Of a stretch of 64,000 bases of DNA, positions 16,355 through 59,726 are shown one piece after another. Position numbers and translations under genes: made by a program. This DNA is from Thysanoteuthis rhombus. Its lineage: Eukaryota > Mollusca > Cephalopoda > Oegopsida > Thysanoteuthidae. The stretch is taken from positions 55,134,910 through 55,198,909 of the forward strand of contig OY735213.1 in assembly GCA_963457665.1 (NCBI GenBank), read 5' to 3'. Numbering within the stretch: the stretch's first letter is position 1; each line of letters begins with the position of its first letter. The notes beneath the pieces were generated by a model. That model was not told the origin of the DNA. It saw only the letters and a program-made list of their open reading frames with translations, and ran no database searches.

Positions 16355-17125
16355 TCCGGTGCAAATAAGCAATATTTGTCACGGCACAGTCAGAAATTCA
16401 TCGTCTAGGTCCTGCAAATAAGCGATATTCGTCTCGACACACTCGGTAATTCATCGTTCCAGTCATGCAGATTAGCAATATTTGTCTCGGGCAAAGTCGG
16501 TAATTCATCGTCCCGTTGTGCAAATAAGCAATATTTGTCTTGACACAGTCGGTAATTCATCGTCCCGTCGTGCAAATAAGCAATATTTGTCTCGACACAG
16601 TCGGTAATTCATCGTCCCCGTCGGACAAATAAGCAATATTTGTCTCGGGCAATGTCGGTAATTCATCGTCCCGTTGTGCAAATAAGCAACATTTGTCTCA
16701 GTACAGTCGGTAATTCATCGTCCCTGTCGTGCAAATAAGCAATATTTGTCTTAACACAGTTGGTAATTCATCGTCCCGCCGTGCAAATAAGCAATATTTG
16801 TCTCAACACAGTTGGTAATTCATCATCCCCGTTGGACAAATAAGCAATATTTTTCTCTGTACAAACGGTAATTCATGTAGATGAGTCATGTAGATAAGCA
16901 ATATTTGTCTCGGGCAATGTCGGTAAACCATCGTCCCCGTCGTGCAAATAAGCAATATTTGTCTTGACACAGTCGGTAATTCATCGTTCCAGTCATGTAG
17001 ATAAGCAATATTTGTCTCGAGCAATGTCGGTAATTCATCGTCCCCGTCGTGCAAATAAGCAATGTTTGTCTCAGCACAGTCGGCATCCCATCGCCTCAGT
17101 TGGGCAAATAAACAATGCCCCGCCT
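16355..17125. repeat. 53-bp minisatellite, about 15 units
   Basis: Tandem units of 52-55 bp start with GCAAATAAGCAATATTTGTC at roughly 16361, 16414, 16467, 16520, 16572, 16624, 16678, 16731, 16783, 16835, 16890, 16944, 16997, 17051 and 17104. A conserved second half reads CAGTCGGTAATTCATCGTCC. Variants are ordered: units ending TTCCAGTCAT are followed by a GTAGATAAGC-type start and then GGGCAATGTCGG. The period is not a multiple of three, so minus-strand open frames across it cycle through three readings and are not evidence of a protein. Confidence 0.95.
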
Positions 17126-26059: not shown

Positions 26060-26401
26060 AGGCTGTACAGATCGGTATCTCATATCCAGCAAACAGGAAC
26101 ACTGAACAGAAAGAAAGGGAAAATATTGAGTATTTCCAAGACGCGACAAACTGCAAAAATCATGGGGAGAATCGATTTAGATCGTACCAATCATTATTGA
26201 ACCATTATCTACGAATCTAAAAAAAAAACCATTCCCTGAAACTGAACCACAAGAATATTCGTATCAACTACATGCAAAAGACAGTACTTCTAAGGTCATC
26301 CTAGATAAACAGGATACCTTAAACTATGATTTAGTTGATCTGTAGTTCGGGATGAAAGACAAGACAACTCTGCATCAAAGCAGAGATACCCCAGGAATAA
26401 T
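26060..26401 (+). mobile_element. R4/Dong-like LINE C-terminal fragment 2
   Basis: Nearly parallel to 25600-25935: AACACTGAACAGAAAG, ATCGATTTAGATCGTACCAA, CAACTACATGCAAAAGACAG and AGACAAGACAACTCTGCATC align with the first fragment in order. It is more decayed, with an A homopolymer and frameshifts. It ends at a short AATAATAATAAT where the larger element begins. Confidence 0.6.
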
Positions 26402-26446
26402 AATAATCCAAAAAGACACAACGTAACACCGCAATGGTTAGGAAAC

Positions 26447-28183
26447 ATGAGAAAAGAACTAGAAGATATAGACAAGGGAGAACCAATATTACTGAATGAA
26501 ACCACATTGAAACATACTCTTAGGAAAGTAGCCAACTGGAAAGCACCGGGTCCCGACGGGATCCATGGGTATTGGTTCAAGAAATCCACAACGTTACACG
26601 GCAGACTCACCCACCTACTCCAAAATTGTCTAAACGAAGGCAAGGCACCAGAATGGATGACTAAAGGCAGAACCACCCTCATCCAAAAAGACCCTGAAAA
26701 GGGGGACGTAGCAAGCAACTATAGACCAATCACGTGCTTACCACTTATGTGGAAAATCCTGACCGGGCAAATAGCAGAGAGAATATACATGTCAATTGAT
26801 AGAAGGGGACTACTACCAGAAGAACAGAAAGGGTGTAGGATAGGAACCAAAGGGGCAAACGATTTACTCTGCATAGACCAGATGATCTTAAGAGAAGTGA
26901 GGAAAAGGAGAAAGAATATTGCAATGGGATGGATAGATTACAAAAATGTGTACGATATGATTCCACATAGCTGGATACTCGAATGCCTTAGAATGTTCAA
27001 AATCAGCGAACCAGTGGTTAAATTCATTGGTAATTCGATGGAAGACTGGAAAGTAGATTTGACAGCCGCAGGGGACAAACTAGCAGAGGTAGGGATAAAA
27101 AGGGGAATCTTCCAAGGAGACTCGTTGTCCCCACTATTATTCGTTCTAACAATGATACCGCTCAACAGAATTCTGAAAAACAGCAAAGGATACCATTTCT
27201 CTAAAACAAAAGGAAAGGTCAACCACCTAATGTACATGGACGATATAAAATTGTTCGCAAAAAACAGGGGAGAGCTTGAGACTCTGTTCAACGAAGTAAG
27301 GGAATATAGTGAGGACATAGGAATGGAGTTTGGAATAGAAAAATGCGCAATCATGGTGATGCACAAAGGAAGGCTTTCAATGACTGAAGGAATTGTACTC
27401 CCGGACAACAGCAAGATTAGGGCATTGACCGCTCAAGACCGATACAAGTACCTAGGTGTCCTTGAATGTGACACGATAAAACGGGAAGAGATGAAGGAGA
27501 AAATAAAGAGAGAATACCTGAGAAGGATAAGGAAAATATTAGAAACCAAATTAAACAGCAGAAATCTAATAAAAGGAATGAACACCTGGGCTGTGTCAGT
27601 AGTTAGGTATACAGGACCATTCCTAGGATGGACAAAGGAAGAGCTCCAATCAATGGATAGGCGAACAAGGAAACTTATGACGATGCATAAAGCATTACAC
27701 CCTAGAGATGACACAGATAGACTATACGTTAAGAGAAAAGAAGGTGGCAGGGGGCTCATCAGCATAGAAGATTGTGTCCAGAGAGCTGAAATAGTCCTAG
27801 AAAGATATGTGGAAACAAATAGAGAAGAAATCATGAAGAGCGCGAGAGATAGTGCAACAAGCAATAAAGTAGAAAACAATGGAACAGTACAGCAAACAAG
27901 AAAAGAAAGATGGGAAGGGAAAAAATTGTACGGCGAGTTTAAAAGACAGATACAAGATGTAGCAGACGAGAAATCATGGACGTGGTTGCGAAAAGGGAAC
28001 CTTAAGAGAGAAACAGAATCGCTCATCATGGCAGCCCAAAACAAAAGCATAAGGACAAACTACATGAAAACAAAAATCAACAGAACACAGACAAACAGCA
28101 AATGCCGCGTGTGCGGTGAAAGAGATGAGACAGTAAACCACATAACTAGTGAATGTAGTCAACTCGCCAAAAAAGGAGTATAA
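26447..28183 (+). CDS. LINE reverse transcriptase with CCHC knuckle (R4/Dong-like)
   Basis: This 578-residue frame encodes the reverse transcriptase of a non-LTR retrotransposon that copies its own RNA at a nicked chromosomal target. Visible motifs are KAPGPDG (32-38), YRPITCLPLMWK (92-103), motif A DYKNVYD (164-170, usually DYKKAYD) with D164 and D170, motif B GIFQGDSLSP (220-229), and motif C YMDD (263-266) with both catalytic aspartates. A long thumb region contains LTAQDRYKYLGV and LDRRTRKLMTMH-like segments. A knuckle of type C-X2-C-X8-H-X4-C follows (C553, C556, H565, C570). The chosen ATG is simply the first in a 5'-truncated frame and is not a natural start. The frame ends at a stop caused by one extra A in an AAAAAA run at about 28171. 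Without it, the frame would run on into the endonuclease domain. Confidence 0.88.
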   Translation: MRKELEDIDKGEPILLNETTLKHTLRKVANWKAPGPDGIHGYWFKKSTTLHGRLTHLLQNCLNEGKAPEWMTKGRTTLIQKDPEKGDVASNYRPITCLPLMWKILTGQIAERIYMSIDRRGLLPEEQKGCRIGTKGANDLLCIDQMILREVRKRRKNIAMGWIDYKNVYDMIPHSWILECLRMFKISEPVVKFIGNSMEDWKVDLTAAGDKLAEVGIKRGIFQGDSLSPLLFVLTMIPLNRILKNSKGYHFSKTKGKVNHLMYMDDIKLFAKNRGELETLFNEVREYSEDIGMEFGIEKCAIMVMHKGRLSMTEGIVLPDNSKIRALTAQDRYKYLGVLECDTIKREEMKEKIKREYLRRIRKILETKLNSRNLIKGMNTWAVSVVRYTGPFLGWTKEELQSMDRRTRKLMTMHKALHPRDDTDRLYVKRKEGGRGLISIEDCVQRAEIVLERYVETNREEIMKSARDSATSNKVENNGTVQQTRKERWEGKKLYGEFKRQIQDVADEKSWTWLRKGNLKRETESLIMAAQNKSIRTNYMKTKINRTQTNSKCRVCGERDETVNHITSECSQLAKKGV

Positions 28184-28503
28184 ACATAGACACGATAGAG
28201 TAGCAACGATGATACACTGGGAACTAAGCAAACAAATGGGATTCAACCATGTGGAAAAGTGGTATCAGCACAAGCCAGAGGCAGTTTTGGAGAATGACAA
28301 CCACAAACTCCTCTGGGACTTAGACATCCAAACTGACCACCTCATCCAGGCAAGAAGACCGAACTTAGTAATAGTAGACAAAAAAAGGAAGGCCTACCAA
28401 ATAGTAGACGTTGCTGTACCTGCAGACCATAGAGTAGAAAAGAAGGAGGGTGAAAAAAGGGAAAAATACCAGGACCTAGCAAGAGAATTAAGGAAGATGG
28501 GTC
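28184..28503 (+). pseudogene. Restriction-like endonuclease domain, frameshifted
   Basis: In the next frame the protein continues as KKEYKHRHDRVATMIHWELS, then a KWYQHKPEAVLEN segment, LLWDLDIQTDHLIQARRPN, LVIVDKKRKAYQIVDVAVPA and KYQDLARELRKMG. This is the C-terminal PD-(D/E)xK-like nuclease of R2/R4-group LINEs, which nicks target DNA to prime reverse transcription. The expected catalytic RRPD appears as RRPN (codon AAC at 28362-28364), while the downstream aspartate in VDV (28407-28409) is kept. The one-base insertion upstream and the D-to-N change both argue that the copy is inactive. Confidence 0.75.
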
Positions 28504-28672
28504 ATTTCACCATTGATTCAACCACCAGTCAGCCTTACCACCGGAATATTCCCGCAAAAAGGCGGCAGAACATTTCTATCAAACCTACGGCCATATAGCC
28601 CTGTTCCTATCTGTGCCAACTCAGCCGACCATTGGATGCAAGCATTGTTTTAAAAGGTGGATTGATTGATTC

Positions 28673-28954: not shown

Positions 28955-28957
<3 letters not shown>
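28673..28957. other. No recognised feature
   Basis: T-rich DNA with a TTTG-repeat patch near 28830-28850. Confidence 0.5.

Positions 28958-29040
<83 letters not shown>
28958..29040. repeat. (TA)n microsatellite
   Basis: About 80 bases of TA dinucleotide, directly left of a palindromic tRNA-headed element. Confidence 0.97.
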
Positions 29041-29044
<4 letters not shown>

Positions 29045-29375
29045 TATTAGGGAAATGTATATGTAATCCGACAGAATATTTATGAATACGTTATATCATT
29101 CGTAATTATATATGAAGTGACCCGTAAGTCACTCAGTCGAGATAAAGTAAATGGAATAAACAATTAAAAAGAGAGGGGTGGGGATACAGTGGTTATTTAG
29201 ACCCTTGCACTTCCGTCAGATGGTTTTGCTCAATGGTTAAAAGCGACGCTACGTTGGAGCAGCAACCTTATTGGTTCGATTCCCGTAGCAGCCCTATTTT
29301 TCTTCAATCATTTATTCTATTCACGCTGTCTAAGCTGAGTGACTCATTCTATACAATCTCAAAAGTTAGTGAAAA
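29045..29375 (+). mobile_element. Palindromic tRNA-headed element (family S), copy 1
   Basis: The left arm has TAATCCGACAGAATATTTAT and later CTCAGTCGAGATAAAGTAAA, GGAATAAACAATT. The centre is a tRNA-like head at 29219-29300: GCTCAATGGTTAAAAGCGAC as A box region, GTTCGATTCCCGTAGCAGCC as B box region. The right arm, CAATCATTTATTCTATTCAC and GCTGTCTAAGCTGAGTGACT, is the reverse complement of the left arm. The head would be an internal RNA polymerase III promoter, as in SINEs. Known SINEs are not normally bounded by long inverted arms. The outermost right arm is truncated here. Confidence 0.65.
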
Positions 29376-33789: not shown

Positions 33790-33825
33790 GTATATGCGTG
33801 TGTATGTGTGCGTGTTTTTAGGTAA
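33750..33825. repeat. (CA)n/(TATG)/(TG)n compound microsatellite
   Basis: CA dinucleotides followed by a TATATG-like stretch and TG-rich sequence, directly left of a family S element. Confidence 0.85.
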
Positions 33826-33826
33826 G

Positions 33827-34272
33827 GGATATATGATCCGACAGAATGATTATAAATTACATTTTTTTATATTGAAAGTCTTATTTGGAATGATCTCCCC
33901 TTATTACATGGTGATTATATGCTAAACAGACGCCGGTGATGCACAGATCCAAATTTCAACACAAAATTTTAATTTTGCTCATTCACGGTCTATATCTGCT
34001 CTATTTGTTTCTCTCAACGCTACAGTCATGTTATTAAGAAATGTACAAACAGTTCTTTGGGCCTTTGCTTTACTGGTGGCTGTTTAGCTCAATAGTTACA
34101 GCAAAGCTACGTTGAAACGGATACCCTATCGGTTACAGGTTCGATCCTTGCTGCAGCCCTATTTTCTTTGATTATTTATTCCATTTACGTTGCCTTGGTC
34201 AAATGATACATTCACCGTCCAGTAAGGGGAAATCATTTCAAATAAGAGTTTCAATATGATGTAACGCAATTT
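33827..34272 (+). mobile_element. Palindromic tRNA-headed element (family S), copy 2
   Basis: Left arm 33827-33917: ATATGATCCGACAGAATGAT, TTGAAAGTCTTATTTGGAAT, GATCTCCCCTTATTACATGG. The tRNA-like head at about 34073-34165 has GGCTGTTTAGCTCAATAGTT and CAGGTTCGATCCTTGCTGCA. Right arm about 34180-34272: CAAATGATACATTCACCGTC, AATCATTTCAAATAAGAGTT and TCAATATGATGTAACGCAAT, the reverse complement of the left arm. The head, TTTATTCCATTTACGTT junction and arms are shared with copies at 29045 and 58736. Confidence 0.75.
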
Positions 34273-40939: not shown

Positions 40940-41110
40940 AATGCTTGTGCAGTATTCTGTTCAAGAGATACCTCCATCCAAGCCACACAGCTTAGAGTGT
41001 ATTCACTTAGCTGCTGAATGCATAGAAGAGTTTTACTTTCTCTCAAACTGGGATCGAACCCGTGACCATCTGTGTGTGAGACAGACGTGCTAACCATTAT
41101 ACCATCAGAG
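40940..41110 (-). mobile_element. tRNA-Val-like SINE head
   Basis: The minus strand reads GATGGTATAATGGTTAGCAC, CTGTCTCACACACAG with a CAC anticodon position, and CACGGGTTCGATCCCAG, so most of a tRNA-like fold is present. The acceptor stem pairs poorly and the T stem has a mismatch, which argues against a functional tRNA gene. The downstream tail is unlike family O. Confidence 0.5.
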
Positions 41111-41499
41111 CGGAAACTACTAGGTGCACCATGCAAGCGGACACTTTCAATTGTTTTGCTCTGTGTAATTCTCCTTGCTTGGTCAGCCGTCCCAACAAGT
41201 CCAAGACACCAGAAAATGTGGTGCAAAGTCATAGGGAGCCAGGGAAAATATATTGACAACTGAATTACTGAATTATGCGATTATAAATGTACATAAGTGA
41301 ATGATCTTGTCAAAAAATACTGGAAACCTTTGCATCGGCCTAATAATACTGAATTCAATTGAATCATACAGCTCAAATCGCGGTTAATTATTGGTTCAAA
41401 TCCCACCAGTGTCAGCTACTGATTATTTCAGCTTTTTAGATTCTGTTGGTTTTGTTTTTTTTTACAAATTTGTCGGAAGATGAAAGACAGATTAATCAC
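41111..41499. other. No gene; B-box-like scrap
   Basis: ATTGGTTCAAATCCCACCAG at about 41391 resembles a tRNA B box. No other feature was seen. Confidence 0.35.
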
Positions 41500-47559: not shown

Positions 47560-47760
47560 AAATGGATACACATTGCATTTCATACACGAGGATAATTGAG
47601 ATTTGCATTGCAGCGAGCTTGGAGAATAGCCTTCTGTATACATTGCATTTTATAGACGTGGATAATTGAGATTTGCATAGCAGGGGAACTTGGAGAATAA
47701 TCTTCTGCATACATTGCATTTTATAAAATGGATAATTGAGATCTGTCCTGCAATTCCCCC
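47560..47760. repeat. Tandem repeat, about 70 bp unit, three copies
   Basis: ACATTGCATTT marks unit starts at 47571, 47640 and 47711. Each continues with GATAATTGAGATTTGCAT-like text and GGAGAATANNCTTCTG. The last unit is truncated. Confidence 0.85.
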
Positions 47761-54054: not shown

Positions 54055-54555
54055 AATCGTTGCATCAAAATTTGAAATCATGTAAAAAATTCAATCGAAG
54101 AATAAATATGGACAGAATAAATTCTATTTATAACATCACTGGCGTAAAATGGTGTAAAAATGCATTTAGAAACATCTGGAGAATCTAGCTGTTATTTCCA
54201 CTGGAAAACATCAAAGATAGAGTTTTAAAAAAAACATCTAGAAACATTTTGAGAATCTAGATGTTATTTCCACTGGGAAACATCCAAAATAGAGTAAAAT
54301 ACATCTAAAAACATCTAAATTCCAGAGAATCTAGGATATTGATAAAACCGTCAAAATAAAGCCCCCAAAATATCAAAAAAGCTTTTTTAAAAATTTAGTT
54401 GGTGTTTAGTATAGCACTGATGCCAATTTCAAGTCTGCAGACCACAGCATGTCCAGGAGCGCTAGAACACACAATCACACGAACACACGCACATATGAAA
54501 GAGGGATAGAAGCTTTAGCACCCCTTTGGTGGCTACGGTTGTTCAACTGCACTTG
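54055..54555 (-). mobile_element. Family B MITE with internal duplication
   Basis: The right side, GGTGGCTACGGTTGTTCAAC, is the inverted form of the family start TTGAACAACCGTAGCCACC. The left side, TTGCATCAAAATTTGAAATC, matches the inner part of the other end. Internally a block with GAGAATCTAG, TTATTTCCACTGG and AAACATCNAANATAGAGT occurs twice (about 54180-54222 and 54249-54296). This copy is therefore about 500 bp long. It is non-coding. Confidence 0.72.
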
Positions 54556-58629: not shown

Positions 58630-58735
58630 AAGTTGGTTCCGCTGGCTGGCTGACTGGCTGGCTGGCTGGCAGGCAGGCCGACTGACTATGTATGCATCAC
58701 GCATCCATGGAGCTAAAGGGCTGAAATTTGTAAGA
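58630..58735 (+). mobile_element. Family A MITE, left fragment with CTGG expansion
   Basis: GCTGGCTGGCTGACTGGC, GGCTGGCAGGCAGGCC, ACTATGTATGCATCACGC, CATGGAGCTAAAGGGCTGAA. It stops where a family S head begins at about 58738. Confidence 0.55.

Positions 58736-59726
<991 letters not shown>

Follow-up and report, generated by a model that had tools for sequence, protein, structure and literature searches.

Octopus genomes are rich in SINEs, which are reported to make up about 40% of their transposable elements (PMC8967140), and the tRNA-derived families treated in that part of the work, the tRNA-Core and tRNA-Deu groups, are short, very abundant elements with a tRNA-like head bearing A and B boxes and a simple repeat near the 3' end. 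The family that we describe here from another cephalopod, Thysanoteuthis rhombus, is like them in each of these respects. In the arrangement of its copies it also recalls the twin priming known from L1 (PMC4245944, PMC2912911), where, as those accounts of it have it, two opposed pieces of one element share a site, with a variable joint between them and a 3' end facing outward on at least one side. In the primate data reported, 5'-inverted copies account for 639 of 2,068 L1 insertions, compared with 1 of 5,554 Alu insertions (PMC2912911). Alu pairs are described as showing a local excess of the head-to-head over the tail-to-tail arrangement (PMC3215922), which is the pattern found here. In the open-access literature, we met no description of head-to-head SINE pairs as a regular cephalopod product.

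The window considered here is the whole stretch of 64 kb that was analysed, C16:55134910-55198909 of a 2.73-Gb assembly in 514 contigs. A sequence-only reading of it had proposed that in three places, here c1 (29045-29375), c2 (33827-34272) and c3 (58736-59300), a SINE head lies between long inverted arms with a common outer edge word, and that head and arms together might be a composite mobile element whose transcript forms a long hairpin. All three were aligned against a single c3 unit taken as the reference.

That description fits c2. Its left arm is an inverted tail (33818-33920, minus strand, E 9e-21) in which the edge word, GATCCGACAGAATGA, is exact at 33835-33849. Past an internal gap the left side continues into a linker, also inverted, and ~11 nt from the start of a second head, most of which is absent (33921-34017, minus strand, E 3e-11, inverted-repeat pair I4). 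On the right, the alignment shows part of the linker, the head (34078-34160) and the tail, all on the plus strand (34028-34272) and without the edge. The arms at 33854-33920 and 34206-34272 are 78% complementary over 67 nt, and the arm-to-arm local score of 59 compares with a maximum of 30 in 200 shuffles. Because the left side of c2 carries a tail, a linker and the start of a second head, each side of c2 is a copy of one unit, and head, linker, tail and edge thus form a single repeating unit.

At c1 the description holds weakly. The left arm (29045-29168, minus strand), made of the inverted tail and a degenerate edge of the unit (reference 332-189), is real but weak, with 64% identity over 145 columns (blastn E 5e-8; nhmmer places unit 210-361 at 29050-29179) and an arm-to-arm score of 31 against a shuffle maximum of 27. 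Its edge, AATCCGACAGAATAT, has 3 mismatches, and a (TA)n microsatellite (28957-29039) abuts the outer end of the locus. The right unit (29192-29348, plus strand, E 4e-22) consists of the end of the linker, the head (~29219-29296, by eye from the alignment) and the start of the tail, and it fades near 29348 without an edge.

At c3 the description fails, as both arms lie 3' of the head. A partial extra head (58728-58802, plus strand; repeat pair D1, 83%, and alignment) adjoins a nearly complete unit (58797-59128, plus strand) with linker, head (58896-58977), tail and edge (59095-59109), and this head matches the Rfam tRNA family with 30.1 bits (cut-off 29). A second piece, of inverted edge and tail (59138-59229, minus strand; inverted-repeat search and alignment), stands tail to tail with that unit, and a third, a tail identified by alignment (59211-59305, plus strand), stands head to head with the second and runs into the (TA)n microsatellite that bounds the locus on its 3' side (59301-59395, tandem-repeat call). 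The best inverted repeat outside the microsatellites, 59037-59128 with 59138-59229, has its arms adjoining on one side of the head, and a comparison of the two halves of c3 gave no arms flanking the head above shuffles (22 vs 27).

The inverted copies themselves are real. An arm profile gave 7 matches in the window at E<=3e-8, the next being at 1.4, and no match at E<=10 in the reversed window, while a head profile gave 4 matches at E<4e-20, the next at 0.055, with a best of 0.48 in the reversed window; both profiles were built from these same copies. The window also contains a tandem repeat of 13.7 copies of a 53-bp unit (16359-17083), two short tandem repeats (47570-47742, 70 bp x 2.5; 54156-54295, 72 bp x 1.9) and a tRNA-Val(CAC)-like sequence (41039-41112, minus strand; ARAGORN, and Rfam with 35.6 bits), which is perhaps the head of another SINE.

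To describe the unit across the genome, we used the first 80 of 100 listed places of the edge word, all of them on contig C1, and counted as a locus the cluster of pieces at each sampled edge. We built a first consensus on 26 long pieces from the first 60 loci; the profile then used 97 pieces taken from the 80 loci together with the three loci of the window. This profile finds 209 unit pieces in 82 of the 83 records and none in the reversed-sequence control; the one record missed, L013, has a short match to the edge only. The profile has a period of 329 bp, with the linker followed by the head (132-213), the tail (214-329) and the edge (330-344), a 3' end near 365 and a GC content of 37.7%. 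The consensus of the head forms a complete cloverleaf when folded (-28.4 kcal/mol) and contains an A box, TAGCTCAATGG, and a B box, GGTTCGATTCC, assigned by comparison with the canonical forms, and single heads reach 47.6 bits against the Rfam tRNA family. The edge word occurs exactly 4,434 times in the 2.73-Gb genome (control 3). With a tRNA-like head carrying both boxes, and with short, interspersed copies in high number, this is a tRNA-derived SINE, and to that extent the earlier description was right.

Head and arms are therefore, on good evidence, parts of one 329-bp SINE-like unit, which is also found head-to-tail in tandem. What looked like arms of a separate fold-back component is the tail and edge of the SINE itself, in a second, opposed and 5'-truncated copy. 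Units may be truncated at the 5' or the 3' end. Identity to the consensus is 84-90% in the 40 best copies, and a partial unit lies upstream in 27 of these 40 as scored. The family is old, so the detail of its junctions is blurred, and it may already be catalogued. An apparent fixed 5' end at 279-289 was an artefact of the scored window, nhmmer having placed it at 265, 126 and 193 in three fetched copies (L104 = 289).

A head-to-head joint is present in 34 of the 80 loci, while 25 have tandem joints only, 20 are single pieces and 1 lacks the unit; loci with two intact edges are drawn twice as easily by the edge word, so that the figure of 34 may be high, but the same bias would favour tail-to-tail pairs as well, and these are seen in 3 loci. 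At least 55 nt of head is present in 47 loci. Over the 80 loci and the three window loci together, we counted 43 head-to-head, 4 tail-to-tail and 65 tandem joints (binomial p 3e-9), or 28, 1 and 28 under a strict count. The excess of head-to-head over tail-to-tail is strongest where the copies abut within 10 nt (38 against 1) and is absent at gaps of 61-500 nt (2 against 4). Genome-wide pairs of exact 12-mers from the edge, in slices of 31 spacings, gave 18 and 8 head-to-head and 3 and 1 tail-to-tail places, with 0 in the controls; one of the tail-to-tail places is locus L062 of the C1 sample, and a stricter 15-mer head-to-head slice gave 1 place. With so lopsided a count of joints, above all of abutting ones, the opposed copies do not look like independent insertions.

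Where the opposed copies meet differs from locus to locus, and the breakpoints, which are profile ends and not base-exact, are far from evenly distributed along the unit. After the joint count we left out L027, a pair overlapping by 100 nt, so that 42 of the 43 head-to-head joints entered the tests of breakpoints, 3' ends, (TA)n and shared joints. Of the resulting 84 breakpoints, 47 lie at unit 180-269 (p 3e-8) and 6 at 120-179; outer 5' ends are spread more evenly, with 20 of 58 and 17 of 58 in these two intervals. The head occupies 132-213, so the breakpoints fall as if copying had often halted at the tRNA-like fold. In 31 of 42 pairs, each arm extends at least to position 300.

On balance we favour a variant of twin priming, in which SINE RNA is reverse transcribed from both ends of one DNA break, although the support for this mechanism is moderate where that for the anatomy is good. 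RNA of the unit, or of multimers of it, would be copied from the two exposed 3' ends of the break, both of which would pair with the RNA near its 3' end, where it is rich in A+U. The two cDNAs would end at variable points, mostly at the stable tRNA-like head or slightly to its 3' side, and their 5' ends would then be joined, leaving an inverted pair whose outward 3' edges are the "arms". The opposed pieces are indeed joined at variable points, as in twin-primed insertions. The process would depart from usual twin priming in that both ends prime near the 3' end of the RNA; a second piece primed internally, adjoining the first in the RNA, is not what we see, as most arm pairs run to position 300 on both sides. 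TTTT tends to stop pol III and stands just after the head, where it may do so, and this counts against pol III as the maker of multimers.

Further points that weigh against this account are the lack of a clear target-site duplication and of a partner LINE, the distribution of (TA)n at the 3' ends, one joint that two loci apparently share, and the slightly greater likeness of arms within a locus. In 10 of 97 clusters the two flanks share a word of at least 8 nt (shuffles average 5.3 and reach 12; the copies are old and the flanks microsatellites), and in 6 of 97 one of at least 10 nt (shuffles average 2.1 and reach 6), all six A/T-rich. Aligning genomic copies, as the sequence-only reading had suggested, gave the anatomy and period of the unit, but neither constant ends nor a clear duplication.

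The window does contain a LINE that seemed by eye to be a candidate partner. This element (26339-28598) has an RVT_1 match at E 4e-27 and a zf-RVT match below the cut-off, and its nearest solved chains are of R2, which points to the R2/R4 clade. One survey reports that, of the molluscs it covers, R4-Dong and R2-Hero occur almost exclusively in cephalopods (PMC10294476). A further 149 matches to the window LINE across the genome were scored, out of 41,233 first-look candidates, and most are 92-94% identical over the matched part. In 8 relatives that were fetched, the 3' ends, judged by eye, run into an AAT/TAA-type repeat in 7 (6 clear and 1 impure) and into more LINE sequence in 1, and the 3' stretch of the window copy differs from that of all 8. 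The best match of the window copy to the SINE unit is 25 nt, A/T-rich, at 88% and E 0.014, and the relatives have no convincing match to the unit; no LINE sharing the unit's 3' tail was found among the window copy and these 8 relatives, and we no longer propose this element as the 3'-end partner.

A different source for both the tandem and the inverted pieces would be multimeric or circular RNA of the ~330-nt unit, made as in retrozymes or with the help of a Penelope-like element, and captured at breaks. The 329-bp low-GC tandem monomer, the 65 tandem joints and the partial units upstream of the best copies all suit such RNA, and metazoan non-LTR retrozymes are likewise described as ~300-bp low-GC tandem repeats (PMC7229834). 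What that account of retrozymes describes differs from the present unit, which has a tRNA-like head, is frequently inverted and matched no known ribozyme family: in 8 loci, neither the hammerhead nor any other known family was among the matches at E<=5. A plasmid search gave no match, as was to be expected. As to Penelope-like elements, the unit is present in 2 of 7 loci with a GIY-YIG gene (chance alone would give about 1 of 7 at the density of the window, which has 3 loci in 64 kb and was picked for them), and in each of the two it interrupts or adjoins a truncated gene and does not bound it, so that we rejected these elements as hosts. The broken gene pieces concerned, at L092 1465-1773 (minus strand) and L093 1363-1605, are interrupted or bounded by the SINE unit. 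We regard a retrozyme-like or Penelope-assisted origin as improbable.

Snap-back synthesis, in which a cDNA folds back and primes its own second strand, would yield head-to-head and not tail-to-tail palindromes, and two further observations agree with it. Opposed arms resemble each other slightly more within a locus than arms do between loci (0.750, n=39, against 0.725, n=7,886; p 0.007), although two RNAs of one source would give this too, and the 3' ends of a pair lie within 8 nt of each other in 13 of 42 pairs. A cDNA folded on itself should reach the same 3' end on both sides, however, and the ends are more than 15 nt apart in 27 of 42 pairs (16 of 31 where both arms reach 300). It should also copy into the flank, and in none of 39 clusters does palindromy extend beyond the element by our criterion (a score above the shuffle maximum plus 8; L057 scored 19 against 17). 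Nor are left and right breakpoints significantly correlated (rho 0.21, p 0.19). We think it quite unlikely that the pairs arose in this way.

Among the outcomes that the sequence-only reading had named as fatal to its own proposal are arms that turn out to be two independent, oppositely oriented insertions of one SINE; the form considered here is that such insertions, of either orientation, are nested in a single microsatellite. Two opposite copies of one SINE are largely what we see, but their independence is strongly disfavoured and must be considered very unlikely. A run of (TA)n of at least 8 nt lies within 40 nt of 64 of 136 3' ends and 15 of 58 5' ends, compared with 122 of 2,484 control stretches, and this enrichment at the unit ends, like the lack of bias at the wider gaps, is what nested insertion would produce. 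It also predicts equal numbers of the two opposed joints, contrary to the abutting ones, and (TA)n between the copies, where a run of 8 nt is found within 15 nt of 0 of 42 head-to-head joints. Among the matches listed, 3' ends recur near 326-335 and 358-365 and often pass straight into (TA)n, a repeat that may serve as target, as tail or as both. We had first explained the pairs by a self-complementary (TA)n target, but this has no specific support: (TA)n is about as common at the 3' ends of clusters with two outer 3' ends (34 of 78) as at all remaining 3' ends (30 of 58), and no clear association links the two sides of a cluster. One sequence abuts the unit 3' end in each of L025 (left of 1481), L067 (right of 1510) and L079 (right of 1505), and is either another element or a preferred target.

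That head and inverted arms move as one composite fold-back element, as first proposed, now seems highly improbable. The head does lie between arms in c1, in c2 and in 8 of the 80 loci, counting in the last the head-to-head pairs with both arms reaching position 300; such pairs are headless in 20 of 80. Joint positions vary among loci, but in 16 pairings the joints coincide within 11 nt on both sides, which reflects the clustering of breakpoints. Of 69 alignments spanning two joints, 2 are free of gaps within 20 nt of the joint and 6 have one gap column. Of the ungapped cases, L062/L068 are 73% identical there and probably share their joint, while L015/L051 are 63% identical with left breakpoints 42 nt apart. 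In the genome-wide count, which covers the L062/L068 joint only, the joint word occurs at 3 places with <=1 mismatch and 20 with <=2 (control 3), several of the 20 resembling ordinary tail variants, and it is not amplified. Fold-back elements or MITEs would have constant terminal inverted repeats and an internal joint shared by many copies; here ends and joints vary, and one joint is probably common to two sample loci. The MER6 MITE, with its SINE V domain, does have SINE sequence between inverted repeats, but the passage describing it gives it 24-bp terminal repeats and TA duplications (PMC6887750), where we saw neither constant ends nor a clear duplication. As joints vary, flanks are non-palindromic and paired copies often have unequal 3' ends, the inverted structure itself is probably not a mobile unit, and each pair appears to be made anew. 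The composite reading is thus unneeded for a SINE family with inverted pairs, and such loci should not be annotated as fold-back elements.

Inverted duplication of the DNA after insertion, by a hairpin or break-fusion at (TA)n, is scarcely credible, for while (TA)n is hairpin-prone, the process would carry flank into the palindrome, which none of the 39 clusters shows by the criterion used, and would not favour outward 3' ends.

Copying from both ends of a break, the reading that we prefer, would have consequences for the transcripts as well. The long hairpin first envisaged is upheld as far as predicted folds go, with -123.6 kcal/mol (z -7.3) for c2 and -116.4 kcal/mol (z -6.8) for the stretch 58896-59305 of c3, and read-through of such copies would yield hairpin RNA. 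Cephalopods are known for heavy RNA editing, and a SINE family of this kind would be a large source of genomic hairpins in such a lineage. As a tentative extension, which may well prove wrong, two-ended insertion could be the normal route for this family, with the tRNA-like fold stopping reverse transcription and so setting the length of the arms, and many ready-made hairpin genes being seeded as potential ADAR or small-RNA substrates.

The SINE family is real and abundant, and its habit of inverted pairing is unusual. From the octopus tRNA-derived SINEs, as the cited part of that work portrays them (PMC8967140), it differs in that its 329-bp unit frequently occurs in tandem and frequently, too, as head-to-head inverted pairs. 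The Alu pairs, in the account cited, are of full-length copies with a spacer of 24-36 bp (PMC3215922), whereas the copies here are truncated and abut. In the twin priming of L1, as outlined in the sources cited, one of the two ends primes at the 3' terminus while the other does so internally (PMC2912911, PMC4245944), while here both pieces usually have the 3' tail. The 5'-inverted fractions reported for L1 and Alu compare with head-to-head pairs in 34 of 80 loci here, although the sampling differs. Inverted insertions of a SINE, which are rare in Alu (1 of 5,554 in the figures given by PMC2912911), occur here as head-to-head pairs in about four of every ten edge-sampled loci, and a family of this kind would be a natural record of the use of both ends of a target break.
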